From the NCBI RefSeq assembly GCF_014356525.2, contig NC_052504.1, positions 66,249,114 through 66,313,113 of the forward strand: a stretch of DNA of 64,000 nucleotides. The letters are read 5' to 3'. The notes under the pieces were generated by a model, which did not search any database, was not told the DNA's origin, and saw nothing but the letters and a program-made list of their open reading frames with translations. Shown one piece after another: positions 6,720 to 62,770 of the stretch. This DNA is from Nilaparvata lugens. Its lineage: Eukaryota > Arthropoda > Insecta > Hemiptera > Delphacidae. The translations under genes were made by a program, and so were the position numbers. Each line of letters opens with the position of its first letter. Position 1 is the first letter of the stretch.

Positions 6720-7260
6720 TTTTCAAAGGCTTTGAGCTGGCTTATTGGCCCCTACATTCGAGGTTCCCTCAGTCAATGAGTCAACAGAAACTTTTGATGG
6801 AGTATCAAGCTATCTCAACAATAATGACAGATAGGCTGAGAAAAGCTGAACATATTTGCCTTTCTTCTGATGATGTATGGACAGAGACAATGGCCGAAAA
6901 GTTATATTTAGGTATAACTGCACAATTTTTAGAGGGGACTTCTATTGTTTCAGTTTATTTATCATGCAAGGAATTGGACTCAAAACATACAGATGAGTAT
7001 CTGAGCCAAGAAATAGAGAAAGTCTTCACAGACTTTCAATGAAGCAAATATTGTAGCAGCAGCTAAAAGTAGTTCCTAACAAGCAGATCCACACATTGAA
7101 CTTGGTAACAAATGCAGCCTTATCCTTGCCTTGTATTAAAGGTACAATTTCTGGAGTTCAAGAAGTTGTTCATTAAAAATGATGTAAATAGTTCTGATAA
7201 GCTTAGAAAAATTCAGTTGGACACAAACATATCTGATGGTCAAATGAAGAGAGTTGTTCT
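6720..7260 (+). pseudogene. hAT-family transposase fragment
   Basis: The open stretch at 6776-7042 contains the hAT/ZBED-like segment ICLSSDDVWTETMAEKLYLG followed by a VSVYLSCKELDSKHT-type stretch, which in hAT transposases covers the first part of the RNase-H-like core (the Asp in 'SDDVW' is the expected first catalytic position). Upstream, in another frame, is FKGFELAYWPLHSRFP. Downstream, broken frames continue with HTLNLV-like and SSDKLRKIQ-like pieces to about 7260. BED finger and C-terminal dimerisation domain are absent. A dead fragment with several frame breaks, abutting the LINE that begins at about 7262. Confidence 0.65.
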
Positions 7261-7261
7261 T

Positions 7262-8101
7262 GATTTTAAGACCTAGTTTCTACTTCATTGTGTCTTAATA
7301 AGGACAAAACTCTACTTTTGGAATTTGGATTTAGATTGCAACCTGACAATGCAAAGTTTCTCGGTATTACAGTTCAAAGCAATTTAAAATGGGGCTTACA
7401 CATCAAAATATTATGTGGCAAACTGTCGAAGGAATTTTTATGTTAAATAGATTAAAGTTCATTGTTGATAAGAGTGTTTTAATTTCAGTGTATTTTGCTT
7501 ATCTTCATTCCCATTTGTATTATGGTGTTGTTGCCTGGGGTAATGATACGAATGTAAATAAACTATTTGTGTTACAGAAACGAGCAGTAAGGGTCATTGC
7601 TATGTGAATAGCCGTTTCCACTGTGTAGATTTATTTAAAAAATTCAAGATTTTGACAGTACCAGCTATTTACATTCTTGAATGTCTTATGTATGTAAAAA
7701 TTAATTTAGCAAGTATTTCTGTAAATAGCAACGTTCACAATCATTACACTAAAATTCTGAATCGCTTAGAGTGAACCAGTGCAATTATGCAAATACATTG
7801 AACTGTTTTAAGGAGTTCGGTATAAGAGCTTATAATAAGCTTCTGCACATTTAAAAGAGCTAGAAGTTGGTAATTTCAAAAGAGCCATGAAAAAGATGTT
7901 AATAGAAATATGTCCATATAGAAAAGAGGAGTTTCTAATTTGAGGGTATTTTGTTTGATGTTTGTATGCTTGTGTTTGAATTTTTATTTCTATGAATGTA
8001 AATACTTTTTATTTACCATGTTAAATTTATTATGACGATGCTATGCATTTGTATATAAATGTTTTTCGCAATAAAGAAATCTTGAATCTTGAATCTTGAA
8101 T
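7262..8101 (+). mobile_element. 5'-truncated LINE, C-terminal RT and 3' tail
   Basis: The frame at about 7330-7607 shows AKFLGITVQSNLKWGLHI, then SVYFAYLHSHLYYGVVAWG and LFVLQKRAVRVIAM, the conserved post-catalytic part of non-LTR reverse transcriptases. Later pieces in shifted frames continue with a FKKFKILTVPAIYILE-like segment. An AATAAA-like signal (gcaataaagaaatc) and a short tandem tail of TTGAATC units (8077-8101) mark the 3' end. The catalytic YADD region and endonuclease are missing, as expected for abortive 5' truncation on insertion. Confidence 0.75.
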
Positions 8102-8109
8102 CTATATGA

Positions 8110-8242
8110 AAATTTCGTCAATTTTGACTTGAGTGCTTAAACTATTCTTGTATCATCAAAGCATGTTGTGGTAAAGTTTACCACAACATGCTTTGATGAT
8201 ACAAGAATAGTTTAAGCACTTAAGTCAAAATTGACGAAATTT
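8110..8242. repeat. Near-perfect palindrome: 66-nt arms, 1-nt spacer
   Basis: The arm 8110-8175 and the arm 8177-8242 are exact reverse complements apart from one mismatch (cttgagtgc against cttaagtgc on the folded strand). The only unpaired spacer is the G at 8176, so it would extrude as a tight hairpin or cruciform. It lies directly after the LINE tail. Either a very young inverted duplication, a small foldback element or an assembly artefact. Confidence 0.85.
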
Positions 8243-9169
8243 ACATAAGTGTATCTCTTTACCTAGATACAGCTGTTGATTTTTTCACCTAACTGTACAA
8301 GAGCTGGGCTCTGCCACAGTAAGTTTATTTTAAATAAGCACTTTTACTGTGGGAAAATTTAGTTGGTTGACACAATCATTCAACAACTATGGCAAAGTTG
8401 CATATCTTTCAGTTACGCAACTTTGCTACTGAGATTAGCTGATTTCCATGTTAAAAACTGTTGTATGCAAGTTATGCACATCTGTTCAACATAGCCTATC
8501 TCTTCTCTATCTCTATACTTATAAAAGGCTAAGCCCCGACAGACTGAAATCACACCACAGCCCAAACTACTGAGCCTAAAAACTTGAAATTTTGCACGAT
8601 TGTTTATGGTAGCCTGAAAACATCCACTAAGAAAGGATTTTCAGAAATTTGCCCCCCTGAGGGAGCTGGGGCCCCCCCAAAATTTTGTACTTTTTAACCG
8701 CTCATTGCACAGCAAAGTCATGAGGAACTTTTTTGTTCAGCTACGAAAAACAATTAGGTCTATGCAGAAAAATTTTGATCATGAGTACAGGGGGGTTCAG
8801 GAGAGGGAATTTTTCGAAAATTTTGATGTAAAATCACACTACAGCTCAAACTAATTGTCCTACAGACTTAAAAATTTGCACAAATATTCTTCATACATGC
8901 TAGACGCGCACTAAGAACGGATTTTGAGATATTTTGTCTCTAAGGGTTTCAAAGGATGAAAAAGGATCCTATTTAGTAAGGTTATGAACAAGGTAAGGTG
9001 AATGCTATATGGAACTGAGATATTTGACACATGATATTCTAACATATGTTGTAATCATTGAAAAACCTTAGAATAATTTTATCAATCAGCTGATCGTAGT
9101 TAGTCAGTTAATCAGCTTATTCATAGTCCAATAAGAACTTGGACTATGAATTCTTCTTTATAGTCCAGT
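8243..9169. repeat. Dispersed-looking repeat with internally duplicated modules
   Basis: No gene. From about 8515 (acttataaaaggctaagcccc) to about 8960 the DNA consists of two diverged versions of one module: 'aatcacaccacagcccaaactactgagcctaaaaacttgaaattttgcac' near 8545 and 'aatcacactacagctcaaactaattgtcctacagacttaaaaatttgcac' near 8833, each followed by a 'cactaagaa.ggatttt' motif. G-runs lie between them. It looks like one of the abundant non-autonomous repeats of hemipteran genomes. Element ends are not visible. 9120-9169 is cut by the gap. Confidence 0.4.
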
Positions 9170-9269
9170 NNNNNNNNNNNNNNNNNNNNNNNNNNNNNNN
9201 NNNNNNNNNNNNNNNNNNNNNNNNNNNNNNNNNNNNNNNNNNNNNNNNNNNNNNNNNNNNNNNNNNNNN
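9170..9269. other. Scaffold gap of 100 N
   Basis: Exactly 100 unspecified bases, the usual placeholder for a gap of unknown length. The BEL/Pao element on its right is cut here, so the missing stretch may be several kilobases (protease to integrase and one LTR). Confidence 0.99.
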
Positions 9270-11134
9270 CTGAATGTGAGTGGGCAAACTAAGTTTTGAA
9301 TATCAATTCCTACTGGTGGAAGACTGGGTGTAATTTTGTCGGCAATAATGCAAGAGACCTTTCTAGACCATGTGCGATCAGAAGAAAACACTTCCACAGA
9401 TGTGGAATACATCGGTGCTGTATTGATGCCAGAAACTGTATGTATAGTATTGTTATGACAAGTTGAAACTAAAGAACACTGTGAAGCAAGATGTTTGGGA
9501 ATGAACCTGTGTCCAACAACGTGCGACACAAAATAGGTTGACCAACCTTATTATAGACTACTACCTCTGCAGTAGGCATGATGGATACTGTTGAATTTTT
9601 GTTGCCATCATATGTGTGACTGGAGTTACTAACTACTTGACCAGCGGCTGGAATCGGCGACCTAGCAGATGACTCTACAGTTGAATTCAATGACTGTTCA
9701 GAAGTAGATGCGACAACTGATGATGAAGCGAGCGGCAACGTGCGGAGGTTGACTGCCGGCTGTGAACCACAACTGCAGCTGTGAAGATGTGCTGAATGAC
9801 TGCTGTTGGAGGAAATTGTAGTATTCCTTAATTGAACACTGTTGGCATTTGCTGTAGCCTTAGAGCAAGATGACGTAAATTGAAATGATGCACCGTGCAA
9901 AATGGAATGATGTGCCTTGCCACACTGCTTACATGCACCAAAGCATTGGTGTCCTGTTGAAAATGGGCGGAACAATTGAAGCACAAGTGCTTTTTGCGTA
10001 CTGCGTCAACCGAGCTTGTGGCTGTAGATTTGACAGCTGAGAACAAGTGAAGACAGAATGTGCTGAGTTGTTACAATACAAGCAAACATTGGGACGTTGA
10101 AATACCGAATTGGGTGTAGCAGTACTGCGACTGTTGTTGAATGATAATTGGATGTTCCAATACTACAATTGTTAGAGTTGAAAAAAGAGCTGCCGATCTG
10201 CTGGGCTGCTGCTGGTTAGCCCTAGGATTGACCTGAGCTGAGTGATTCAAATTAAGTGACACAGCTTGTGACACTTTATGTTGGGACTCCATAAAGTTCC
10301 GGAGATTGTCAATAGTAGATAGTATCGCTCCCAATCACGTAGGGTAGCAATATCAAAACGAGACACAGTGACATACATGAACAGAAGGTCTTTAACATCT
10401 ATACCTAAATCAAGTGCTTCTAAAGCAAAAATGTTTGTTTTTTGATGGTCAATAAGACTGCGCCAAGATTGTGCTGATTTTGAATTGAGTTGCAGTGGGT
10501 TCAAGATTGCCAAAACATGTCGATCAGCAATAAGTATTGGATTGTCGTACCTGGTTTTCAACAAATTCCAAGCTAAAGTGAAATCACCTGGTGGTGCATT
10601 GGCGATTCTATTCAACGCTTCGCCGGATAATACCTGTTTGAGATATTGAAACTTTGCACTGTTATCAACTGAATCATTATCAACTATAATACTAGTAAAT
10701 GCAGAACGAAAATTCAACCAATTTTCAAAATCACCATTAAAACGAGGTAATGGTATTTCTGGTAATGTGAAAATTGAATAGGTCGTGGAGTGGGGGCATG
10801 CACTAATGCAGGTTCAACGAGAACCCTATTGGCCTCTTCAAAGGCTGCCAGATTGGCCTTGATTCTAGAAGTAATGTTAATAAAAATTTTTGAAATTTCA
10901 TATGAATAGTTTTGTCTCCATTGGGATCCCCTTCGTCTAAGCTATCCTTGATATTAACATAGGCGTGTCGAAGGGTATCAATTCCTCTTTGACAGTGATT
11001 AATTCATGATATTCTAGCTGATTTCTAGGCGTTTCAAAATTAAACTGATCAATGAGCCACTGTAGGTGATCAAACAGATTTTTTCTCTTTGCTATTAGCG
11101 CCGAGATATCAGTTGGAAGAACTTCAGTAGACAT
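9270..11134 (-). pseudogene. BEL/Pao retrotransposon gag and start of protease, decayed
   Basis: Read on the minus strand from about 11134 (MSTEVLPTDISALIAKRK, a likely gag N-terminus). A segment at 10247-10717 (MNFRSAFTSIIVDNDSVDNS, then AKFQYLKQVLSGEALNRI and FTLAWNLLKTRYDN) is characteristic of the gag-like domain of BEL/Pao polyproteins. A Cys/His cluster follows (HLCFNCS in one frame; CKQCGKAHHSILHG in the next), the usual BEL zinc-knuckle region. Then LLDTGSFPNILL at about 9485 carries the DTG active site of a retropepsin, continuing toward the gap with a 'PPVGIDIQNLVCPL'-like segment. Frame changes near 10300, 10050 and 9900 show it is dead. Reverse transcriptase and integrase are not seen and would lie in or beyond the gap. 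Confidence 0.8.
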
Positions 11135-14986: not shown

Positions 14987-14990
14987 TAAA

Positions 14991-15022
14991 TGAGGGGGTG
15001 AGAATAGAAGTGGTCTAACTCA
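14991..15022 (+). repeat. Left TIR of the 5.2-kb transposon
   Basis: Begins TGAGGGGGTGAGAATAGAAG. Pairs with 20178-20209 with 30 of 32 positions identical. Confidence 0.85.
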
Positions 15023-15289
15023 GTTTTCTAAGATTTTCAGGACAGAGACTGAACTGAAGAGGGCTGTCGCAAAATCAGTAACTGTGAAAAACGAGTTAAA
15101 TTACTGAATATTGTTATTGAAGAATTACTTTAACTCGTACTGTTATTGCCACAGTCTTTACTTTTGTATTTACAAAAATATCAAGGTGTCATTGAGTTAT
15201 ACCACTTTGGTTCTCAAGAAATTCCGAGTTTTGTTGAGTTTCAAAACAGTTCAAATTTATTCAAATTGATACAATGACCTTAATTTCAA

Positions 15290-16225
15290 ACTATCACTAT
15301 CAAAATGGAGTAATAATGTCAATAATGCACAAAATAATGAAAAAATAAAAGTTAAAAAAAATAGAGACTATATCACTAGGTACTACTTTATTCATTGTAA
15401 ACTTTGAGTCAGTAATACAGAAGTAAACTTAAATTTTTCAATCCATGGTACTAGCAGCCTAATAATTTTCAGTTTTAACTCAAAATTATTATCAAAATGG
15501 AAAAAACAATGTCAATAATGCACAAAACAATGAACTAATAGAGGTTAAAAAAGAGACTATCACTACAACTTTGTTCATTATAAACTTTGAGTCAGTAATA
15601 ATAGAAGTAAACTGAAATTTCTCAATCCATGGTATTAATAGCCTAATAATTTTCAGTTGTAACTCAAAATTATTATCAAAATGGAAAAAACAAAAAGGTA
15701 ACAATGCACAAAATAATGAACTAATAGAAGTTAAAAAAAGAGACTATCATTACAACTTTGTTCATTATAAACTTTAAGTCAATATAATAGAAGTAACTCA
15801 AATTTTTCAATCCATGGTATTAGTAGCCTAATAACTTTCAGTTGTAACTCGAAATTATTATCAGAATGGAAAAAACAATGTTAATAATGCACAAAATAAT
15901 GACATAATAGAAGTTAAAAAAAGAGACTATCACTACAACTTTGTTCATTATAACTTTGAGTCAGTGATACAGAAGTAAACTCAAATTTTTCAATCCATGG
16001 TATTAGTAGCCTAATAATTTCCAGTAGTATCTCAAAATTATTATCAGAATGGATTAATAATGTCAATAATGCACAAAATAATGAAGTACCAAAAGTTGAA
16101 CAAATTAATAGAGACTGTCACTACTAACAACTTTGTTCATAATAAACTTTGAGTCAGTAATGCAGAAGTCAAATTTTTTAACCCATTGTATAAGTAATAA
16201 TTTCCAGTATTTACTTGAAATTATT
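15290..16225 (+). repeat. Tandem satellite, unit about 185 bp, five copies
   Basis: The motif 'atcaaaatggaaaaaacaatgtcaataatgcac' recurs at about 15297, 15484, 15669, 15855 and 16038 (spacings 187, 185, 186, 183). 'ttgagtcagtaatacagaagtaaac' recurs with the same period from 15406. Units differ by scattered substitutions. The array lies inside the transposon, between its left TIR and the 3' end of its gene, so it travels with the element. Confidence 0.85.
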
Positions 16226-16682
16226 ACTAGTGGTAACTGAGAATTATTATTAATGCAATTACCACTGAAAATTATTAACAATAGAATGGGTTATAAAAAT
16301 GTGCAGTTTAGTTAACTTCTATATTACTGGCTCAATGTTTATAATAAACAAAACAGTTGGTACCTTACTAAGCGGGCTTACACATTTTTGATGTATTGTA
16401 CATTATAAAAATTGTATCAAGCAACATGTTTTTAAATTTTTCTCTATCATAACATAGAAAAATGTTGAATATTCAAAATTATTATGATATTATGGAGACG
16501 AATTTCAAAACATAAGGCTTGATACAATACAATGTTTTTGTATTTATTATTTATTATTTATTATTATATTTATTTATTATTATATTTAATTATTTATTAT
16601 TTAATGATACAATTTAGGCTTATATTAGTGTAAGCCTACTAAGGATTACAGTGTGATTACTAGTAATTGACCATGAATAATA

Positions 16683-19600
16683 TTATGTATTTAAAAGTTC
16701 ATCATCATCTTCGCCATCATCAAGAAAGGTTACTTCTTCAGCATTGTTGGAACTTTTGATGTTCTTGAAGTATGGGTGATACACTGGAGGAATGTATTTG
16801 AGGAGGAATAACATATCCCTTTTCTTCAGTACATTGATGATACGTTGCTCTGTGTAGAGTTGATCTGGCTTGGGTAGAGTTGTTTTTGGTCGACCTTTAA
16901 CTGGTTTTGGATGCAAATCCAAAGTCAGAAATGGTTCATCATCATCAAGGCGGGTCTTATACATGATTTTGAAAGGATTGTCTTTTCTGTATCGAAGCCA
17001 TTGAATAGAAAGCCATTTCACATCTTCATTGTTTGTGTTCTTTGATCGCCGCATTATTGATTTCTCCACTTGGCAGTTGATATGAAGTCTTCAGCCACCA
17101 TTTTGACAACAATAAAGCGATTTTTTTTCCTGGCAGAAGCTATGACATTAAACCAATCATCTGGCAAATAGATTGGTTTGCCTTTTGCAGATTTTTCTAT
17201 GAGACCAAAATCTGAATCATTTGGCAAGTAGGAATGGCCAGATACCAAGAACTTTTGGTCCACAACATTGATTGTAGGACTATTCTGCACAAGATGCATT
17301 AGAGACAGGGCAACCTTGATATTACGATTTTGCCCTGTGCATGTATCACTGTAAATTATGATGTGACTTTGAGTGGATACATGTAAATCAATATGCTTCA
17401 AAATTGAAGAGGCTACTTCTTGAGACCCCCGAGAAGCCGTGCATTCGTCCCAAACATACATAGTTGCATTATTTGAAGCAAGGTTGTGTATTCCTAAATT
17501 GTAGCAATACATATTACGCCGGTAATAAGCATCTGAAACACTGAGCCTAGGGAAAGGAAGAGCTTTTTGGAGATCAACACTCAGGGCTAGAATTTCATCG
17601 CTTTGTTCTTGTGCTAGTTCTGCGTCAGCTTTCAAATAATCTCTAGCTTTATCAGCTTTAGCCAAGTGAACTTTGTGTTTGTTTTTCAAATCTACCAATT
17701 TTTGTTTGTCTGATTCTACATCAATGGATATTTTAAATATATCACATACTTTACAAGTGTCTTTCCTGGTAACATGAAAGTGTAGATTGAATTTTGTGTT
17801 GAAAATATACCTATAATAATGTTCTTTTTCAGGTACAACACCTAGCACTGAACAACTTTCTACATACAGCTGATACATTTTTCTCAAATTCAGTTCTGGA
17901 TTAAGATATTTTCTGTTTGGATTGTCTTTACGAGTGTAGTGGCTCTGAAATGCTGGGAAACTGTTGATGTGGTCAACTATGCCTTGCACTTTATTCTCTG
18001 GAATTTTTGTAGCTGTTTGATTTTTCCCTCTGAGGTCTTCTCCTGGTGATTTACCCAGCTTTAATTTCTGTAGAGCTCTAGCAACTCTGCCGTTTGATAC
18101 TGAAAAAGTATCCAAGAAGTATTGTTTGCATACTTTGAGAGTTTTCCCAGCAACTTGTAAATAATATTTACAGGAATTTTGCCGTTCTGGCTTGCTGCCA
18201 TTGACTGGCCTTCTCACAGCTACTTGACCTATGTGAATGAGTCCAGTAAGATAAGCATTTTGTCTAGAAAAATCAGACATACCATAAAAGCTATTGAAAA
18301 TAGCATGTCGTTGCTCTTCAGTCACTGAATCAAAACATTTGAGGCGGCAATTACAGTTTTTATTAATGAAGTTCTTTCTGTGAACTAACACACCTTTATA
18401 ATTAAGGTACTCTTTACCTGAATTTCTTAATCTTTTGGCTGTGGATTGTTTTGTACAATCTGGTTTTCTCATTCTCTTACGAGGTTTTAGAGGTGGTGTA
18501 TCATCAGCGTCGTGTGGAACATTGTCAGCATTGTGTGGAACATCACCATCTTGTGGAACATCAGCGTTGTGTGGAACATCAGCGTTGTGTGGAACATCAG
18601 CGTTGTGTAGAACATCAGCGTTGTGTAGAACATCAGCGTTGTGTTGATCATCAGCGTTGTGAAGAGAGGCAGTGGTGTGTGGCAGATCAGTTGTCTGTAG
18701 CAGTAGTAGAGCATCAGCAGGCTGATCCTCTGAAAAGATCACAAAAATAAATGCTAAAGTTCATCTTAGTATTGATTGAATATGGTTCAAAAAAGAATAA
18801 TAAGTGTAAGAAATTTCAATTAGTTATTTTATTACAATAATACAATGTTAAGGAATGAAAAAATATATAACATCAATCTTTGATGCTACTTAGTTGGAAG
18901 CTGATAAACAGCCTATTGCTTGTATGAAGTTTTGCATTGTTCAGACTAATTCTAGCTAACATAACTTTCAAATCTTTGTAATTGAACTGTTGAACTTTTC
19001 ACTCTACTGTATGAGAACTGTATGAGTAGTCTACTGTATGTACCGTATTTCAAGACAGTTGAACTTTTAACTCTACTGTATGAGCTAGTATCAATTTGTA
19101 CTATTTTTGAAAAAGTACTGTGTATTTTACAAAAATACACAGTGCACACGTTCTTATGCACCTTTATATTTCATTTCTGGTTATTTGACATTATGAACCA
19201 AGCTTGAACTGAAATCGAAAACAAATATATTGAAAATGGTGATACCTGGAGATATTGAGATGCACTGCAATCCCGAGGGCTCAGGCTGTCCTCTCAATGA
19301 TCCAGTATCTGAATCTGAAAAATACACAGAAAAAATATCACATTATAGATCATGGAAAACTTGAAGTTAGGGTTCATCTGAGATATATCAACAAGAATGC
19401 TCAATTCAAATAGGTAAGAGTTCAAGACCTCTATGACCCTGCAAATTTTATAGTTTTAGCTCATTATACAATAATGGCTCAAACCATGATAAGACGTATA
19501 GCAATGAACATGCAAAATGGGAGGTGCGGCACTTTCAAATATCCAATACGTAATTGTTCAAATTGGATATGTTATTCTGAAAATTCACCAATAGCTGTTT

Positions 19601-19919
19601 ATGAGAAATTTGAATTGAAATTGATATCACTTTCAATTTTATACCATGGTCAGAGTTAAAATATTGTATCGTTATATTATTTCTAGTAATACTTACAGAA
19701 TAAGCTTGAATAATTAGTTTGGAATAAGTTTTAAGAGTGATAACCTCAAAAACGCAACAATACCTAATAGCCTGAATGAATTTATATCTTACCTTCAGAG
19801 TTGTAATCAAGGGCACTTGGATGGAATTCTTTATCTTTATCACTGTCATAATCTTCTTCACTACTCCCACTCTCTTCTTCAATTGCATCTTGCAGACTTT
19901 TACCGTACAAAAACGACAT
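16683..19919 (-). CDS. Three-exon transposase-like gene of the 5.2-kb element
   Basis: Exons on the minus strand: 19919-19793 (starts MSFLYGKSLQDAIEEESGS; donor GGTAAGAT), 19314-19246 (acceptor tatttttcag, donor CAGGTATCAC) and 18729 to 17054 (acceptor gatcttttcag). All three junctions are phase 1 and join in frame to about 623 aa before a stop at 17054. The same protein continues in another frame at 17069-16683 (KSIMRRSKNTNNEDVKWLSI...), so one indel near 17070-17090 or a further small intron separates the last 128 codons. Order: acidic N-terminus; repetitive HNADV segment; CNCRLKCF (possible Zn or HTH region); DLRGKNQT and FPAFQSHYTR; DTCKVCDIFK; YVWDECTAS; IIIYSDTCTGQNRN; GHSYLPNDSDFGLIEK. 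The Asp of WDE, the Asp of YSD and the Glu of LIEK are plausible DDE residues (inference). No name is assigned with confidence. Confidence 0.8.
18510..18665 (-). repeat. Coding minisatellite, 18-bp unit
   Basis: About eight imperfect copies of an 18-bp unit (gcgttgtgtggaacatca on the plus strand) lie in exon 3 and encode six-residue repeats such as VLHNAD and VPHNAD. The length is a multiple of three throughout, so copy-number change would not break the frame. All other long frames across this stretch are simply this repeat read out of phase. Confidence 0.85.
19246..19314 (-). CDS. Exon 2 of the transposase-like gene
   Basis: A 69-nt exon between a pyrimidine-rich acceptor (tgtatttttcag) and a GTATCA donor. 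Encodes SDTGSLRGQPEPSGLQCISI plus two codons. Phase 1 at both ends, compatible with exons 1 and 3. Confidence 0.65.
19793..19919 (-). CDS. Exon 1 of the transposase-like gene
   Basis: The initiator ATG is the complement of 19917-19919. Forty-two codons, very acidic in the middle (EEESGSSEEDYDSDKDKEF), ending GAA G before a consensus donor GTAAGAT. The leftover G joins AT of exon 2 to give Asp. A stop-free reading and exact phase match support it although it is short. Confidence 0.7.
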
Positions 19920-20177
19920 ACCGATACCGTACAACAATAATTGAACAACAGCTCTACTCTATGCAGTACACACTTTGGTAACAATCAAAGTGGTACAACT
20001 CCGTCACTCGGAGTTATACCATTTCAAATCTGAATAGAATTGCAGTTTTGTTGAGGGGATAGAATTGTGCTGCTATCTATGCATGAATGAAGGAACTATG
20101 ATTTATACCACTTATACACTAAATAGATACTACTATTAAGAGTTGAAATCAGCTGTTATCCCAATTTCGAGAAAAAA

Positions 20178-20209
20178 TGAGTTGGACCACTTTTATTCTC
20201 ACCCCCTCA
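20178..20209 (-). repeat. Right TIR of the 5.2-kb transposon
   Basis: Reverse complement of the left TIR, outermost bases ...CACCCCCTCA at 20200-20209. Confidence 0.85.
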
Positions 20210-20426
20210 AATGTGAATAAACTATTAAAATTAGAAAATGCGGTATTAAATAATATTACGCCATCTATAAACAATGATGAAGTTCATTGACTGTTCACGA
20301 ACATGTTTGTGCAGGTCTTCAAAGTGTACATAGTGGGGGAAGAGTATTGAGGGAATGAAGTCAGTAACTTGAAATTGTTATTCATTCTACATTCAACATC
20401 ATACGTGTGTGAACGTGTTTTCAATC

Positions 20427-23280: not shown

Positions 23281-24160
23281 TTAAATGATTGAAAGTGCCT
23301 TTAAGCATTCAATTGACATTTGACTCTTCTCTGTCGTCCAAAAGTTGTTAATCAACGAAAAGGCCCGTTCTACTGAAGCATTAGTCCCTGGCAAAGAAAG
23401 CACAAATTCCACGAACATCTTCAGGTTTGGAACTTTTATTTCATTCTTCCGCAAGTTTTCAAAAACAGTTAACCATCTTTGCTCTGTTGTGTTTTTCTGC
23501 ATTGTCCATTCTGTCAAGACATTTTCAGACAGTTGAGTGTTCAGCACGCTCAACTTGTTGAACAAATCATCAGAAGATATGGGTGGTAAGCTTTTTTGGA
23601 AAATGGTATAGCTTTCCTCCAACTCCTTCCATTTCAATTTTCTATTTAAATCTATCCAAGACTCAAGCTGGCTCAAGCTGTCAACATTTGATTTCCAAAA
23701 GTCCAAATAGGTAATGCAACGGTCATAAAAAGAACACACTGTACTCTTAATGTCTTCCAAGACACTATTATTATGTCCTGCAGCCCAGTTTTTCTTTTGA
23801 ATCTCTTTCACTTTCATTGGTAAAAATGAAGATTCTTTTCTGTCCATCAAGTTTTTGCACAAAATCGAATATTGATTTGCTGCTTCTGTTGCTGATATTT
23901 TGTCGCCCTCCATCTTTTTTACAGTTTCATTAAATAGTCCAGCTACATTATGAAGAAACCAAAGCCAAAGTTCCCCATTTGGATCAAAATGATTTCAACA
24001 CTACTGGGGTGTTGGGTTGTGAAAAAAGTATTGCTTAAGAGCTTTACTAAGAGTTTATTGCTTTTATCTTTTCTCCTATCTTTTATAGAAGTAAGGCGCT
24101 TTTCCCCTGAATCAATTATCCCCAAAAATTTATTGTTCCACCAAAGAAAATAGAAGATAG
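23281..24160 (-). pseudogene. hAT transposase, C-terminal part
   Basis: The minus-strand frame 23913-23281 ends with FVEFVLSLPGTNASVERAFS followed by LINNFWTTEKSQMSIECLKA, the classical hAT C-terminal dimerisation motif. The preceding 130 residues are the helical insertion domain. Upstream another frame (24160 to 23943, FLGIIDSGEKRLTSIKDRRK ... MGNFGFGF) carries the part before it; the two are joined at about 23930 by a VAGLFNETVKKMEGD-like reading with a frame change. The N-terminal catalytic region is not found nearby. ZBED/zinc-finger-MYM-like hAT, dead. Confidence 0.8.
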
Positions 24161-31781: not shown

Positions 31782-31929
31782 TGTGTGTATGTCTGTGAAC
31801 ACGATAACTCCATTCTTAATTAACCGATTGACTTGAAATTTTAAACTTAAGGTCCTTATACCATGAGGACCCGACAATAAGAAATTCAATAAAATTCAAT
31901 TCAAGATGGCGGAAAAAATGGCGGATAAT

Positions 31930-32560
31930 TACTAAAAAACCATGTTTTTCACGTTTTTCTCAAAAATGGCTCTAACGATTTTCTTCAAATTTATAACATG
32001 GATAGCTATTTATAAGCCCTATCAACTGACATGAGTCTCATTTCTGAGAAAATTTCAGGAGCTCCGTAATATTATTGAGAAAAATGACGGATAATCACTA
32101 AAAAACCATGTTTTTCACGGTTTTATCGAAAACGGCTCCAACGATTTTCTTCAAATTTATACCATGGATAGCTATTTATAAGCCCTATCAACTGACATGA
32201 GTCTCATTTCTGGAAAAATTCCAGGAGTTCCGTAATATTATTGAGAAAAATGGCGGATAATCACTAAAAAACCATGTTTTTCACGGTTTTCTCGAAAACG
32301 GCTCGAACGATTTTCTTAAAATTCATACCATGGATAGCTATTCATAAGCCCTATCAACTGACATGAGTCTCATTTCTGGGAAAATTTCAGGAGCTCCTTA
32401 ATATTATTGAGAAAAATGGCGGATAATCACTAAAAAAAACATGTGTTTCACGATTTTCTCAAAAATGACTTGACCGATTTTTTTCAAATTCATACCCTTC
32501 ATAGTTATTTATCGGCTCTATTAACTGGAATGAGTCTCCTTTCTGAGAAACTAATGGGGG
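31930..32560 (-). repeat. Four tandem 168-bp units inside the repeat
   Basis: 'catggatagctatttataagccctatcaactgacatgagtctcattt' recurs at about 31998, 32165, 32333 and (diverged) 32500. The same units occur in the opposite orientation at 62150-62770. Confidence 0.8.
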
Positions 32561-43115: not shown

Positions 43116-44444
43116 TTATGCTATGAATGATGTACTTTTCTCTGATATGTTTCTGATTCTTCGTATAACATACACGGCAGATGCTAACCTCTTGCATAAC
43201 AGCTCTATATGTTTTCTCCATATTAAGTGACAGTCAATTGTTATCCCCAGGAATCTTGTACAGTCTGTCAGCATTGAGTCATCATTTGTTTGTCTCTCAT
43301 CCGGGTTGCTTCTGACTGGAGCGAATCTGATGTGGACTGTCTTCTTCCTATTAATGGTCAACTTCAGTCTATTGCATGTATCTGTGGCCTCTTCCAGTGC
43401 TGTCTCAACAATTTTTTGTGGGTCTTGAAGCTTCTGCGATGGTATCAAGATAGTGGTATCATCGGCAAACAATATGCAGCTGTTTCTGTTGTCAATTTCC
43501 TTGGGAAAGTCATTGATGTAGACAAGGAACAGCAGTGGCCCAAGGATGGATCCCTGGGGCACACCCTGGGACACTGCTCTGAGTGAGGATTTGTAGTTTA
43601 TAAGAGCAGTTTTCTTGTGCTGCACTATTTCCACATACTGCTTTCTGTTGGTGAGGTAGTCCTCTATCCACTCCAATGCTCTTCCCTCTATTTTCAATTC
43701 TCTCAATTTCAGAGTTAGGATGTTCCAGTCTAGTGTGTCGAAGGCCTTTTGAAGATCTATAAACAGTCCCATAACAGTATTTTTCTCCTCCCAAAGTTGG
43801 TTTATATTGTCACACGATTCAGATATTGCAGTTGTAGTGCCTAGACGTTTTCTAAATCCATGCTGTTGTGCTTTTATGAGTTTCTTGCTCTCCAGATGCA
43901 GGATAAGCTGGTCATATACTGCTCGTTTGATAATTTTTGAGGTTATAGGTAGGTTTGCTATGGGCCTATAGTTCTTGTGATCCATTTTATCTCCTCCTTT
44001 GAATTTTGGAAAAATCTTAGAGATCTTAAGAGCCTGTGGGAATACAGCTTGCTTTAGGGAAGAATTTACTATTTCCAGTAGAGGCTTTGTTAGTTCTTCT
44101 TTGGAACTTTTGAATATTTTTCCAGTGATGTCATCATGCCCAGCAGAGTTGTTCGATTTTAGTTTGTCTATGAGATGGTGGAGTTGTGCTGTATTTATCA
44201 TCTGAAATTCACTCAATGCTTTGATGCCTGTCAGCTTGGCCATACGTCTTAGAGGAGGGTCAAATCCTGTTGTTGTTGCTGGCTGTGTAAAGGCTTCATT
44301 TAGGATGTTGCTAGTGAGAAAAGGATCAGTGATCTTCTGGCCCTCTATTTCCAAACAGAGGTTTTCCTGCCTGTTAAGATTACTTCTGTTCCGTTCATCA
44401 TTGATCATTTTCCATAGGGTCTTGGTTCTGTTGTCTGATTCCAT
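43116..44444 (-). pseudogene. LINE A reverse transcriptase domain
   Basis: 442 codons of non-LTR RT. NSAGHDDITGKIFK and KISKIFPKFKGGDKMDHKNY followed by RPIANLPITSKI (blocks 1-2), GFRKRLGTTTAI (block 3), VMGLFIDLQKAFDTLDWNIL (catalytic block A), SQGVPQGSILGPLLFLVYIN (B), CILFADDTTILI (C, catalytic Asp-Asp), LKLTINRKKT and TRFLGITIDCHLIWRKHI (post-catalytic). All three catalytic Asp positions are present. The stop at 43116 interrupts the frame, which continues at 43100-42639 with LRYGIVAWG, RVLRIQKWALRTIL and the SYFFNLLPRDLK-type end. Cytoplasmic/nuclear RNP enzyme for target-primed reverse transcription when intact. Confidence 0.9.
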
Positions 44445-45240
44445 GATCCTACTCTTGACATGTATCTTTTTTTGTGTTTCACATCATGGTCATATAGATT
44501 TTTTAGTTCTTTGTATTGCTGCCTATGGTCCTCTGATGCAATTGAGATGGATTTCTCTCTAGCTAGTTGCATTCTGTGTTTCAGAAGAGTAGTTTTTTCC
44601 TCCCAGAACTTGTACCCCTTTGCTGTAGTGATCTTCCTTGGTCCTCTTGGCATTGTTTCATCCATTTTCTGTCGCATTTTTGTGGCAAAAATATTGTATT
44701 TTTCATCGACAGCGTGCGTCTCAATCACTGGTGACCAGTTGGAATCCTGTAATTTTGATTTTAACTCTTGAATGTTTCCTTTTGAATAGCTTCTTGCATA
44801 CCTGTATGTCGGCAGTTCTGGGTTGTATTTGTATTTTATATTGCACAAAACAGCATGGTGGTCTGAGAAATGGCTCGGGTAGACTGTGGCTTCGACATCG
44901 ACATCTGAAAGTGACAGGTTATGATAACATCCATCAAGGATTGTGGCTGAGTTTGGAGTCACTCTGATAGGAGGCATATAATGGATTTGGCAGCCATTTC
45001 GAGTCAACATATTTTTTAGGTCTTTGAAGTTCTGCTCAGATGTCTTGTGAGTGTCAATGTTTGTGTCACCCAGGATCACTATTTTGTGATGCTTTGCTGA
45101 GAAATTATGCAACAGGCCTCCAAGTTTAGTGAGGAATTCCTTTATATTACCTGGGTCAGGTGATCTATAGGTTCCAATCAAAATCAGGGTTTGTCTTCTT
45201 TGTTTGAATATTTAAGCCCACTGTTTCAAATTCTTTTTCA
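44405..45240 (-). pseudogene. LINE A endonuclease domain (partial) and linker
   Basis: GTYRSPDPGNIKEFLTKLGG, then IVILGDTNIDTHK (the GD.N catalytic motif of APE-type endonucleases), MPPIRVTPNSATILD and VYPSHFSDHHAVL (the SDH motif). The part before GTYRSP is in another frame (EFETVGLNIQTKK, about 45240-45190) and the domain start is missing. After the endonuclease comes the basic linker leading to the RT. Confidence 0.85.
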
Positions 45241-45330
45241 GTTGGTTCGTATGGCTCTTCCAGCTTTATTTCTGTTGTGTTGGATACCATGTCTTCGTGT
45301 CGTCTGCAAATCAGATAGCTTTTTGAATGC

Positions 45331-46770
45331 CGAGGCATATGTGGATCGCGTCCACAAGGACGTACAGTGAATGTTGAGGCATGTGTACATACGATTGTTC
45401 GCGCGAATCTGTACGGATGTGTGTACAAGGCTTTAACTTAATGAACATCTTTCTCACTTGAATTTTCTGATTCTTTCCCATAATTTATTAAAGAATTTGA
45501 TTTCCCAATAAATAGAGAATTCAGAGTAAATTTGATATTTTAGACCTATATTTAAATCAAAATTTAAAATGAAAAATCATATGAAAAATCGGTATGGAAT
45601 AATCGATGCTACGATTAATCGAACCTATCCGACATCGATTAAAATATAATCGATTACACTACAAAAACATTGATTGGTTCGATTAATCGATACCCATCCT
45701 TCCCTAGCATGCTTTGCTTTTTGTGTTTTTAAAGATTAGAGTGGAGTCTCTGTTCATGATTAATTTATTAATTATTTATCAAATGTTACTCTTAGTAAGT
45801 AAGTGGAATCTGATCTGTAATAAATAATGTACAATATTTCAAGATTACGAAGTTTTAGATACTACTGTCATAACTTTGTTCCAAAGACTTATAGTACCTC
45901 ATTTTTGAGGTCATGCACACTCTGCAAATGTATAACCTCAAAAGTGTTTTCCACTGTCTTAGGTAAGTTTAAAGCTTTGTTTATTTTTATATGCTTTAGA
46001 GACGTGTTTTTCTATTTCATTATTCACTTTCCTACTCTATAATAAAACTGAGTGCTATTCATTGAACTTTTCTAAATATTAACCTTAAAAAGCATCCAAT
46101 TATATACTTTTCAACTTTTTTATGTAAGGCATAGTGTGTTATTCATCCCATGTGCAAGTATTTCAACTTATCTTTATTAAATAAAGATACGTATCATGAT
46201 AAACACAAATTTTGTGTTCAATATCTGAAGAAAGTGAGCCTCTGGCTGGCTAAAAATGAGGCAAAAGTCTAGCCGGTGAGCTACCCCTTTTATCTCCGCT
46301 ATTATTGATGATATATCCACTCATTTTTTTATGAAAGAGGAAGAAGAATAAAGCGCGCTAGCCTATTTTGATTCAATTTTAATATTATAAATAGCTGTTT
46401 CAAAACTAACCTTTAGTAACGGCGGCTTTCAATAATTTCAATTCCAATTCTTTCACTCGAAAAACTTTTGAATAGTATTAATACATCAATACTGTATAAT
46501 TCATGCGATATTGAATGCTATGATTCCATGAAGAAATTAATTTCCTTTATTATAATAATGATTTAGAAGATTGAAGTTACAATCATTGCAACAATCTGAT
46601 AAAACCATCTTGACATTATAGGCCTGCAGCATCGTATTGCGAAGGTGCTTCATTGAAAATAAAGTTCTTTGTTATCACGGATACTAATCACAGTGGTTGG
46701 TCATTTTGATTAATATTAACATAATGCCATTTAATAGCAAAAACCTAACCTAACATTTCCTTTTACCTTG
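45331..46770. other. No gene recognised
   Basis: AT-rich spacer. A small inverted pair (acgattaatcgaacc at 45612 / ggttcgattaatcgat at 45677) forms a weak hairpin. The 71-codon frame at 45827 is unsupported. Confidence 0.5.
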
Positions 46771-46909
46771 TAAGTGATAAATGATAAATGATTTTATTGC
46801 CTTTAAGCCATCAAATACAGCAATTCGTCAAAGTTTACAAGGTACTAAAATTGGTTTTTAATAAATATAGAGTTCAGTCTATCAAAATACAGAAATATCA
46901 CAGTAAGAT

Positions 46910-48458
46910 TCAGGTACTTTTGTAAAACACATTGATAGTCCTTTCAGGAACACTGAAAAACTCATTCATTTCATACATAGGAGTTTGTATCAGAAAATTA
47001 TAAGTGCCCCGGAGAAACTCCTTGGTTGGTAGAGACCTAGCTGCTGCCGGAAGCCTGTTGAAAAGTCTGGCATTTAGGTTGCTAGGGCTATTCCTCACTC
47101 TGCTCAGCCTTGTGAATGGAATGTCGACCTGGTACCTGCCCCTGGTGTCAAAGTTGTGGATTTCACTACGCAGTCGCATACTCTCCACAGAAATCTTGAA
47201 TTTTTTCAGTGATACGAAAATGTAGAGGCATATCACTGTCATGATGGATTCGGCACAGAAGAGAGGACGACAGTGGTCAATAATTCCTGAGCCAGTAATA
47301 ATTCGTATGGCCTTCTTTTGAAGCAGAAGAATTCTATTACTTCACTAGCTGCACCCCAATGTTCAAGGCCATACAACATGATTCCTTGGAAGAATGAGAA
47401 TTAGGCTGTCTTGACATAGTCCTTTGGCACACTGAGCATAAGCTGCCTTAATAAGAAAATCACCCGTGATAGTTTCTTGCAGATGACTTTAATGTGGGGT
47501 TCCAGGTTAATTTTGGATCAAGGTGAAAACCAAGAAGTTGTACACTTCTCTCCTGATCCACAATATTCCTCAAACTGAAAATTATTCTTTGGGTTTTCTC
47601 CTCATTTAGCTTGAGGAAGTTTGACTTGAACCACACCGATGCAGCATCAAAGGACTCACTCATCCTCTCCGACTCACTCATCAGATCTGTTGAAGAGCTG
47701 CTAACATCAAAAATGGTGTTATCATCTGCATAGGCTGCCAACCTATTACCTAGTGCACAAGGTAGATCATTTGTCATTATTATGAAGAGCAGGGGGCTGA
47801 GTATGGACCCTTGTGGGACCCCATGTGGAATAACCTTCATTGCAGAAACCCTACCATTCACCTGGACCACCTGGCGACGACCTGATAGGTAAGATTTCAG
47901 GAGTCCTAATGAGACATCAGTGACCCCATAAAACTCCAACTTGGACAGCAGAATCTGGTGGTCCACTGTGTCAAAAGCACGGCTCAAATCACACAATGTC
48001 AAACCTGTGAAACCCCTGCTCTCAAAGCTCTCAAGCACGACCTTCAAAAGACTTTCCACTGCCTGGGTTGTTGTTCTTCCAGCCCTAAACCCGTACTGAG
48101 CATCCACCAACAGTCCAGCACTCTCAAAATACAAGCATAACTGTTTCTTCTCAAAGATTTTGGAGAACACAGGTAAGATTGCAATAGGCCTGAAGTTACC
48201 CGGTAGATCAGTTGAACCCTTCTTGTAAATGGGTACAGTCTTAGCAATCTTTAGTAGAGCAGGAAAAACACCCTCCACAATGCATGAGTTCAAGCAGAAA
48301 GTTAGAGGTACATGGATAGGAATGATGACTCTTTTTATGAGATTCACTGACAAATCACAGAAGTCCTTACTTTCAGAATTTTTCAGCTTACTCACAACAT
48401 CCAACACTTCTTCACAAGATACTGGGCAGAGCACAAATTTGGTTTCTGGCCTGGGCAT
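46910..48458 (-). pseudogene. LINE B reverse transcriptase and C-terminus
   Basis: VVSKLKNSESKDFCDLSVNL, KTVPIYKKGSTDLPGNFRPI followed by AILPVFSKIFEKK, YGFRAGRTTTQAVESLL, GLTLCDLSRAFDTVDHQILL (A), HGVPQGSILSPLLFIIMTND (B), AAYADDNTIFDV (C), LNEEKTQRIIFS and LLGFHLDPKLTWNPTL. The catalytic Asps are intact. The frame ends at 47460 by indel; the C-terminal part resumes at 47242 (TVICLYIFVSLKKF, NFDTRGRYQVDIPFTRLSRV, LFNRLPAAARSLP). Upstream a TAG at 48471-48473 separates it from the linker in the same frame. Confidence 0.9.
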
Positions 48459-48470
48459 AGCATTTAGGAA

Positions 48471-49633
48471 CTACATGGCCGAAATATAAGGGGTGTCAAT
48501 AGAAGCACGAACTGTAGCAACTGAATCCACAAAGAAGGAATTGAAGATATCAGGCTCTATACGTGTGGTCCTCTGCTGAGAACTCATTTCTCTCTTGATC
48601 ACCTTCCATGCTGCAGAGCACTTATTTTGCGAGGAGTTTATCTGCTGGGCATTCATTTCTTTTTCGGCTCTCAAGAGTTTCTCCTTTTCCAGTGACATAT
48701 ATAACTGTTTAGAATCAGCTGTCCTTAGATTCTTGTGGTGCTCATAAGCAAGAATGACCCAATTCTTGAGGACAGTTAATTCTTGACTCATCCAATGCGG
48801 CCTTGTCCTGTTCTTGGTCCACTTTTTTGCAGTCTGTAGCCTTTCTGGAAAGACACTGTCAAACAGGTACTTGAAGTGGCTGAAGAATTTATTAAAGCTA
48901 TCTTCTGGAAGACCCGGTGTCATAATTTCGTTCCAATCCACCAGATACAGCAGATGTTTGAAATAGTTTATCTGACTTTCAGTAACTGGACGCACAAGTA
49001 CCCTCTTAGGGGAACTACTGGAGATGTCAGAATAGGTGTCAGACATATAGCTTCATGGTCACTCAAAGCATAATTTTTTATAGAAACACTGTACAAACTC
49101 TCTGGTAAGTTGGTCACCACATTGTCCAGACATGCATCCATCCTAGTAGGCTCACTCACAGTGCAGTACAGGTTCAATGACCTCATTAGATTGACAAAGC
49201 TGATTGTATTAGTAGCTGAAGCATCAAGGAAATTGAAATTGAAATCCCCGCCCAAAACAATGTTGTGGTTGGACATTCTATTGAAGATGTAGAGAATGAC
49301 AAATTCCAGATGTTCCAGGAAGTAATTTGGGTCACCATTGGGTGAACGGTATACACTTATAATTGTTAGCTTGGGCTCCAGCAAAGTGACACAAGCCAAT
49401 TCAAAATGAAGCTCCTTACAGTGGTGATAAATATCCAGGTTAAAGTGTTTTGCTTTGTTATGGTCCAGTAAATCCTTTGACACAAAGATTGCAACTCCTC
49501 CATGTTTATGTGTGGTTCGACTAAAAGAGCTAACTAGTAGATAATCTTCGAAGAATACCATCTTCAGCTGGTCCTCACATAGCCAGTGCTCAACAAGGCA
49601 TAATACTTTATAACTCTCCTTACAAATTGCCAA
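48471..49633 (-). pseudogene. LINE B endonuclease and linker
   Basis: APE-type endonuclease in one frame (49633-48968): CLVEHWLCEDQ (catalytic Glu), KHGGVAIFVS, ISVYRSPNGDPNYFLEHL, NIVLGGDFNFNFLD, ACLDNVVTNLP and YALSDHEAIC. The linker is in a neighbouring frame (49046-48471): PVTESQINYFKHLLYLVDWN, NRTRPHWMSQELTVLKNWV, AAWKVIKREMSS. The frame change lies in the 80-bp overlap around 49000. The N-terminal 10-15 residues of the endonuclease run upstream of 49633 in broken frame. Confidence 0.9.
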
Positions 49634-49853
49634 TTCAATATCTAGTCTTTTAGCTAAATTAAGACACTGAACATTGCTAAACAGGACATTGAAACCCGGG
49701 TCAGAAACTTTAACACCGTTAGGCCCAGATTCAGAACTATACTGAGTCTCAAGAAAATTATTGGATCCAGAAGCTAAGTATTTTCCCCTTTTTGTAAAGC
49801 CTTCAAGTTTAAATTGCTGTTATTGCTACTTTGCTTTCTTGTAAAGTATTTTG

Positions 49854-61578: not shown

Positions 61579-62149
61579 TCTGGTGTGGTACACTCACACA
61601 ACTTTCCTTGCTCATTGAACTATTTAAAATTTTACATCTATTTTCGCTTAAAAACCTTTCCCCTTATTTTGATCAAATATTTCTCTTGTAAAAAAAACAT
61701 CCACGGAACAAAGTGCCCTTTTTATAACCCTACCTTAAAATTTCCAATATAGTTCGCTAAATAAACTTAAGCCTCAATATCAAACGAGAATAATTTGGGA
61801 GAAAAACATAATGACGATTGACGGCAACATATTTGCAACTACGATCAGACTACTGTATATGTGTATATACAATTGTTTTCAGAGTACTTTTTCCTTTATG
61901 TAAATATTGTGAAATTCGATGTTTTTTTTTTGAAATTCGTCAAAACAGCTGTTCTACAGATGAAATATCTTAACTATGACTGTGTTCTTTTTATAAACTG
62001 CTCTACCTACCCACGGTATATGGAAGAAGAAAAAGTAAAAACCGTGTTCCTACCTACCTCATGCACGAGAAGGAGGTTACAAAGTCCATTTCTCAAGGAT
62101 TGGGTGGACCCCCCCATTAGTACCCCAGGAAAAAGACTCATGTCAGTTG

Positions 62150-62770
62150 ATAAAGCTAATAAATAACTATACAGGGTATGGATTTGAAAAAAATCGTTAG
62201 AGCCGTTTTTGAGAAAATCGTGAAAAACATGGTTTTTTAGTAACTGTCATTTTTCTCAAGAATATTACGGAGCTCCTGCAATTTTCACAGAAATGAGACT
62301 CATGTCAGTTGATAGGGCTTATAAATAGCTATCCATGGTATAAATTTGAAGAAAATCGTTAGAGCCGTTTTCGAGAAAACCGTGAAAGACATGGCTTTTT
62401 AGTCATTATCCGTCATTTTTCTCAAGAATATTACGGAGCTCCTGAAATTTTCCCAGAAATGAGACTCATGCCAGTTGATAGGGCTTATAAATAGCTATCC
62501 ATGGTATAAATTTGAAGAAAATCGTTGGAGCCGTTTTCGAGAAAACCGTGAAAAACATGGTTTTTTAGTCATTATCCGCCATTTTTCTCAATAATATTAC
62601 GGAGCTCCTGAAATTTTTCCTGAAATGAGACTTATTTCAGTTGATAGGGCTTATAAATAGCTATCCATGGTATAAATTTGAAGAAAATCGTTAGAGCCAT
62701 TTTCGAGAAAAACGTGAAAAACATGGTTTTTTAGTAATTATCCGCCATTTTTTCCACCATCTTGAATTGA
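62150..62770 (+). repeat. Four tandem 167-bp units
   Basis: 'aaatttgaagaaaatcgttagagccgttttcgagaaaa' recurs at about 62175, 62340, 62507 and 62674. Opposite orientation to the array at 31930-32560. Confidence 0.8.

Follow-up and report, generated by a model that had tools for sequence, protein, structure and literature searches.

A 64,000-nt stretch of Nilaparvata lugens DNA (contig NC_052504.1, positions 66,249,114 to 66,313,113; hereafter, the window) was found to contain a young 5.2-kb copy of a cut-and-paste DNA transposon, which probably belongs to the Sola superfamily as a Sola2-like element and would encode a DDD transposase with an RNase-H/retroviral-integrase core. The element has terminal inverted repeats (TIRs), a 4-bp target-site duplication (TSD), near-identical copies elsewhere in the genome (L009, L010, and L011), and a gene of a conserved protein family, which is frameshifted in the window copy; the RNase-H fold and the position of the DDD triad are predicted from a structure model. 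The Sola2-like label is a strong lead that rests on published descriptions of Sola and not on comparison with labelled Sola proteins.

Element boundaries and terminal repeats

An earlier note on this DNA had described a complete 5.2-kb transposon at 14991..20209. Its ends are indeed complete, but the gene carries one frameshift, and the span was one base too wide at each end, as the AAAT duplication sets the element at 14992-20208 (5,217 bp). The 32-bp TIRs with two mismatches reported there are real; the arms extend over 37 nt (14991-15027 and 20173-20209) and are 92% complementary, with 3 mismatches in 35 bases when counted from 14992. The consensus of these inverted repeats of about 35 bp is GAGGGGGTGAGAATA.AAGTGGTC.AACTCA.TTTT. 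The differences between the left and right TIR at positions 16 and 25 also separate the ends of L009 and thus represent a fixed left/right difference, not decay. The use of the TIR mismatches as a measure of insertion age was dropped for this reason. The internal satellite recognized in the earlier note was also recovered, as 4.6 copies of a 183-bp unit (Table 1).

The TIR pattern GAGGGGGTGAGAATANAAGTGGT, with up to two mismatches allowed, matched the genome at 64 forward and 61 reverse sites, and the reversed control matched at none in either orientation. Exact matches to the pattern were found at six genome sites, which are the two termini of each of the three full-length copies (the window copy, L009, and L010). 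That a chance inverted repeat happens to surround an unrelated gene is therefore hardly conceivable: this explanation is refuted by the 125 genome matches against zero in the control and by L009 and L010, whose ends coincide to the base with those of the window copy.

A 13-base subterminal motif, AGTGGTNYAACTC, whose pattern was picked after inspection of the element ends, occurs four times in the window, each time no more than about 220 bp from an end of the element. One copy lies within each TIR, and one in the opposite orientation is located about 200 bp inward at each end. The motif also occurs in the near copies, with four matches in L009, three in L010, and two in L011, which is truncated. 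Judging from the sequence, these repeats are presumed to be transposase-binding sites.

Table 1. Features of the element in the window, and target-site duplications (TSDs) at the loci compared. TIR, terminal inverted repeat.
Feature	Position	Strand	Remarks
Left TSD AAAT	14988..14991	none	Identical to 20209-20212
Left TIR	14992..15027	+	Starts GAGGGGGTGAGAATAG; end common to L009, L010, and L011 (one mismatch)
AGTGGTNYAACTC copy 1, within left TIR	15009..15021	+	Pattern match
AGTGGTNYAACTC copy 2, inner left	15194..15206	-	Pattern match
Internal tandem array, 183-bp unit x 4.6	15298..16169	none	Region also aligns in L009 and L010
Frameshift (~17069-17075) and displaced C-terminal ~110 residues	16686..17075	-	tblastn frames -3 then -2
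Exon 3 to premature stop	17054..18729	-	Conserved cysteines and predicted RNase-H/DDD core
Asp 3 codon (NDSDF, second D)	17216..17218	-	Invariant (84/84); start of following helix in model
Asp 2 codon (YSDTC..GQN)	17345..17347	-	Invariant (84/84); end of strand beta4 in model
Asp 1 codon (DLQKALP)	17573..17575	-	Invariant (84/84); end of strand beta1 in model
Coding minisatellite, 18-bp unit, in frame, HNADVP-type repeats	18502..18661	-	In exon 3
Exon 2	19246..19314	-	AG acceptor and GT donor, phase 1; no tblastn homologue
Exon 1	19793..19919	-	ATG 19919-19917; acidic N-terminus; GT donor, phase 1; no tblastn homologue
AGTGGTNYAACTC copy 3, inner right	19989..20001	+	Pattern match
AGTGGTNYAACTC copy 4, within right TIR	20179..20191	-	Pattern match
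Right TIR	20173..20208	-	Minus strand starts GAGGGGGTGAGAATAA
Right TSD AAAT	20209..20212	none	Identical to 14988-14991
TSDs, near copies			Window AAAT; L010 ATAT
TSDs, distant loci			L013 ATAT; L014 AGTT; L017 ATAT; L018 ATTT; L020 AATT; L021 ATTT; L022 ATTT; L025 AGCT; L027 AAAT

Copies and relatives in the genome

A six-frame search of the assembly that contains the window (1.085 Gb, 6,870 contigs), in which 78 of 1,796 candidates were scored and the counts are lower bounds, returned at least 82 matches, some loci giving two rows. Outside the window, L009, L010, and L011 matched at 98–99% identity, and all others at 32–59%. L009 is full length and shares 99.7% identity with the window copy, L010 is full length with more gaps and an insertion of about 1.1–1.3 kb, and L011 is truncated. 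The insertion in L010 holds part of another family member (homologue residues 80-245, 30% identity). Thus, the genome search for the same TIR pair, which the earlier note had set in advance as a test capable of refuting the element, yielded two full-length copies and a truncated one. For closer comparison, 20 regions were fetched: the three near copies and 17 distant relatives.

These copies also bear on whether the gene is a domesticated, transposase-derived host gene and not part of a mobile element, which we consider very improbable. A long conserved open frame with introns would suit such a gene, as would the many listed genome relatives in which the matched stretch is free of stop codons. 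However, intact TIRs and a duplication flank the gene, near-identical copies with the same ends occur elsewhere, and the window copy, L009, and L010 each have a frame break of their own, so that domestication is refuted at this locus.

Most of the listed two-mismatch TIR matches share a variant end, GAGGGGGTCAGAATACAAGGGGT, and five such stretches (L029-L033) were fetched. L029 and L033 are bounded by variant ends with the 4-bp repeats ATGT and ATAT, respectively; with sizes of about 750 and 1,376 bp, they look like non-autonomous elements. The flanks of L031 differ (ATGT versus CTGT), and no convincing facing end was found in L030 and L032.

Among the distant relatives, L026 (contig C16) is a large palindrome or inverted duplication that extends to the end of the fetched stretch; its 2.65-kb inverted arms (169-2821 and 7251-9901) are 99.8% identical and flank a related transposase frame.

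Target-site duplications

Inverted repeats were scored blind to their flanks, and the window, L009, L010, and nine of the distant loci were taken on, 12 stretches in all. In 11 of them, the ends are flanked by a perfect direct repeat of 4 bp (Table 1); nine of these 11 have the form AWWT, and none is TTAA. The termini begin with GAGG, GGAG, GAGC, GAAG, CGAG, or GGAC. In a control with displaced ends, a 4-bp match occurred in 156 of 24,000 trials (0.65%) and one of the form ANNT in 0.07%, which are the chance levels for the AAAT duplication of the window copy at a fixed register. With up to seven boundary registers allowed, a 4-bp repeat of any kind is expected by chance at about 5% of loci.

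Left out of this count were two loci with high-scoring inverted repeats, L012 (24 bp) and the palindrome L026, together with six loci at which no inverted repeat scored above 17. When the best pair of each of these eight loci was inspected in 13 registers, no 4-bp ANNT repeat was detected; chance-type repeats were present in L019 (AAAA, AAAAA) and in a second pair of L026 (ATATT). Stretches of at least 1.5 kb at 96–99% identity connect left-out with TSD-bearing loci (L012/L013, L015/L017, L026/L027, and L028/L027), and L016 has 2.5 kb in common with L015 at 99% identity. Some of the left-out loci are thus worn or truncated copies.

Predicted transposase gene and its frameshift

The earlier note had proposed three minus-strand exons whose phases (1/1/1) agree. 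The splice sites are present and both junctions are in phase 1, but exon 3 is the only exon with tblastn homologues; exons 1 and 2 are supported by splice signals and an acidic motif, the latter also present in 3 of 120 homologues. The conserved cysteines of exon 3 are possible zinc ligands. The long, conserved-looking protein described earlier stands as regards exon 3, although the protein as given there ends early, at the frameshift.

The tblastn homologues follow one frame to about 17075 and another from about 17069 to about 16731, and, as read from the letters, a net one-base frameshift disrupts exon 3 of the window copy. An intron at this place was rejected, since one frame takes over from the other within a few bases. 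The frameshift is missing from L009, L010, and L011. The frames of L009 and L010 are also broken, elsewhere, and that of L011 is unbroken over homologue residues 115-616, the element being truncated at its 5' side. Over more than 5 kb, seven substitutions and eight one-base gaps separate the window copy from L009. Seven of the eight gaps are bases missing in the window, against only seven substitutions, which makes sequencing error a plausible suspect as one contributor to the frameshift. The usual homopolymer explanation is unsupported, as all eight gaps lie outside runs of four or more bases.

Protein family and predicted fold

A search of about 5.8 billion proteins, with the 7,995 candidates sharing most words scored, gave 153 homologues at E ≤ 0.001. 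The named ones among the best 120 listed came from insects and one fish and were labelled “uncharacterized,” “hypothetical,” or “unnamed.” The earlier expectation of uncharacterised relatives in insects and cnidarians was borne out for insects (and one fish), but no cnidarian name occurs among these 120. A second search, started from distant members, gave 401 matches, the best 120 of which comprised further relatives with no name, plus one protein that UniProt lists as “DUF7869 domain-containing protein.” The label “Sola” was not found among the best 120 of the 153 or of the 401 homologues. The motifs WDE, YSDTCTGQNRN, and PNDSDFGLIEK, pointed out in the earlier note, are present and conserved in the homologues.

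The DDE assignment, and the check on RNase-H/DDE geometry that had been suggested for it, found support in the structure model. The predicted fold is an RNase-H/retroviral-integrase core with three acidic residues, in which Asp 3 lies at the expected helix start by its secondary-structure position. The solved structures of retroviral integrases, Mos1, Metnase, IstA, and a Tn7 transpososome chain share 7–18% identity with the family in the rows listed, and the structure comparisons barely cover the N-terminal ~280 and C-terminal ~150 residues of the homologue P0004. Sequence searches against solved structures gave chance-level matches only.

Pfam family PF25273 (DUF7869), for which the Pfam entry gives no function, matched 36 of 50 scanned homologues at E ≤ 0.1 (best 2e-13). 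In the window protein and P0004, the match spans Asp 2 and Asp 3, not Asp 1; the window protein scored 19.1 bits, under the 26-bit gathering cut-off. An NCBIfam scan of 45 members gave nothing coherent. Scans of viral contigs (pattern A2; 5 stretches matched, 0 confirmed) and of genome contigs for bacterial relatives (pattern A1; 83 matched, 0 confirmed) revealed no relative at such sensitivity. One homologue, P0119, is annotated with an OTU-like cysteine protease domain in addition to DUF7869.

Other features of the window

Two sets of RVT_1 and Exo_endo_phos frames lie in separate pieces on the minus strand at 43119-49819 and were read as remnants of non-LTR retrotransposons. Also on the minus strand are a fragment with a hAT dimerisation domain (23284-23994, E 8.5e-5) and a DUF1759 domain (10250-10813, E 4.3e-20), which we take to be a domain of BEL/Pao-type retroelements. 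Two oppositely oriented arrays of a 166-bp satellite, each with 3.8 copies and close to a TG/CA microsatellite, lie 30 kb apart at 31914-32550 and 62134-62752. No match was obtained when the window was scanned for Rfam families and tRNAs.

Classification of the element

The Sola superfamily was reportedly founded in a paper by Bao et al. in 2009. In published accounts, Sola elements have a DDD transposase, 4-bp duplications, TIRs of 11 to 1,124 bp, and a length of mostly 2–9 kb (PMC10741241), and amoebozoan Sola2 elements have AT-rich AWWT duplications such as ATAT, AAAT, and ATTT (PMC3627910). With nine of 11 duplications of the form AWWT and a predicted DDD pattern, the present element is a good fit to Sola2, and the TTAA-type Kolobok and piggyBac do not fit.

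Several observations weigh against this assignment. Two of the 11 duplications (AGTT and AGCT) are ANNT but not AWWT. The duplication of L010 sits in an AT microsatellite and is uninformative, and those of L025 and L027 are open to another reading; thus, eight of the 11 are unambiguous. The flanks of L009 are unequal, AATT (2503-2506) versus ATAT (7730-7733), each of the form AWWT and with no duplication, perhaps due to recombination between copies or two insertions. A TIR plus duplication is lacking at eight of the 17 distant loci (L012, L015, L016, L019, L023, L024, L026, and L028), with the inverted repeat of L012 lacking matching flanks and L026 being palindromic. As for the protein, Glu 432, seven residues past Asp 3, occurs in 82/84 and could be an alternative third catalytic residue. 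Foldseek alone gave one PDB match at E ≤ 0.001 for the window model, with TM ≤ 0.24, and two at E ≤ 0.001 for P0004.

It is unlikely that the element belongs to another DDD/E superfamily with duplications of about 4 bp (Kolobok, piggyBac, Ginger, or IS481EU) or to a separate unnamed superfamily. Such a placement would accord with the lack of a direct sequence link to a Sola reference and of any match named Sola among the homologues listed, whose named members carry uninformative or DUF7869 labels. However, Kolobok duplications are TTAA-specific (PMC9587614), unlike the AWWT/ANNT duplications observed here; piggyBac is described as having 4-bp duplications with CC..GG termini (PMC10045372), which differ from the present ones, and as targeting TTAA (PMC7351741). 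The duplications of IS481EU, of about 4, 15, and 25 bp (PMC10045372), also speak against it, as does the absence of any rve/integrase-type Pfam family from the listing for the 50 scanned homologues. In a further proposal, the DUF7869 transposases of insects and other animals would constitute a separate superfamily, distinct from Sola1/2/3 and characterized by ANNT target choice and G-rich termini. This is improbable; if true, the superfamily would be highly diversified, with many families within one insect genome.

For the Sola2-like element, a mechanism can be proposed in which the transposase would bind to the TIRs and to the AGTGGTNYAACTC copies close to both ends and then pair these ends. 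Excision would be carried out by two metal ions held by the three aspartates, the 3' ends would be joined to the two strands of an A-W-W-T target with a 4-bp stagger, and gap repair would produce the 4-bp duplication. The window copy, as printed, would be reliant on transposase from another copy.

Significance and comparison with known transposons

The element is a genuine and young DNA transposon that falls within a known kind, probably the little-studied Sola2 group, and does not represent a new one. The results suggest a likely function for a large group of proteins listed as “uncharacterized” or “DUF7869,” namely that of predicted integrase-fold transposases. At the loci checked, DUF7869-type proteins are often encoded within mobile elements that have defined ends and are flanked by 4-bp AWWT/ANNT duplications, and genome annotators could mask such genes as transposons. 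Young near-identical copies together with many stop-free relatives make this a candidate group for an active, little-studied transposon for insect genetics. A literature search for “DUF7869” found no paper; thus, assigning the domain to a transposase core may merit recording.

The suggestion in the earlier note of an under-described family is fair for the protein, whose listed homologues have no function names, but the length and preference of the duplications and the predicted DDD pattern match known Sola/Sola2 elements. The likeness to Sola/Sola2 comprises the 4-bp AT-rich AWWT duplication, the predicted DDD pattern, the presence of TIRs, and a size within the usual 2–9 kb, whereas the present family is set apart from Sola2 by a TIR of its own (GAGGGGGTGAGAATA..), by introns, and by the internal 183-bp satellite.
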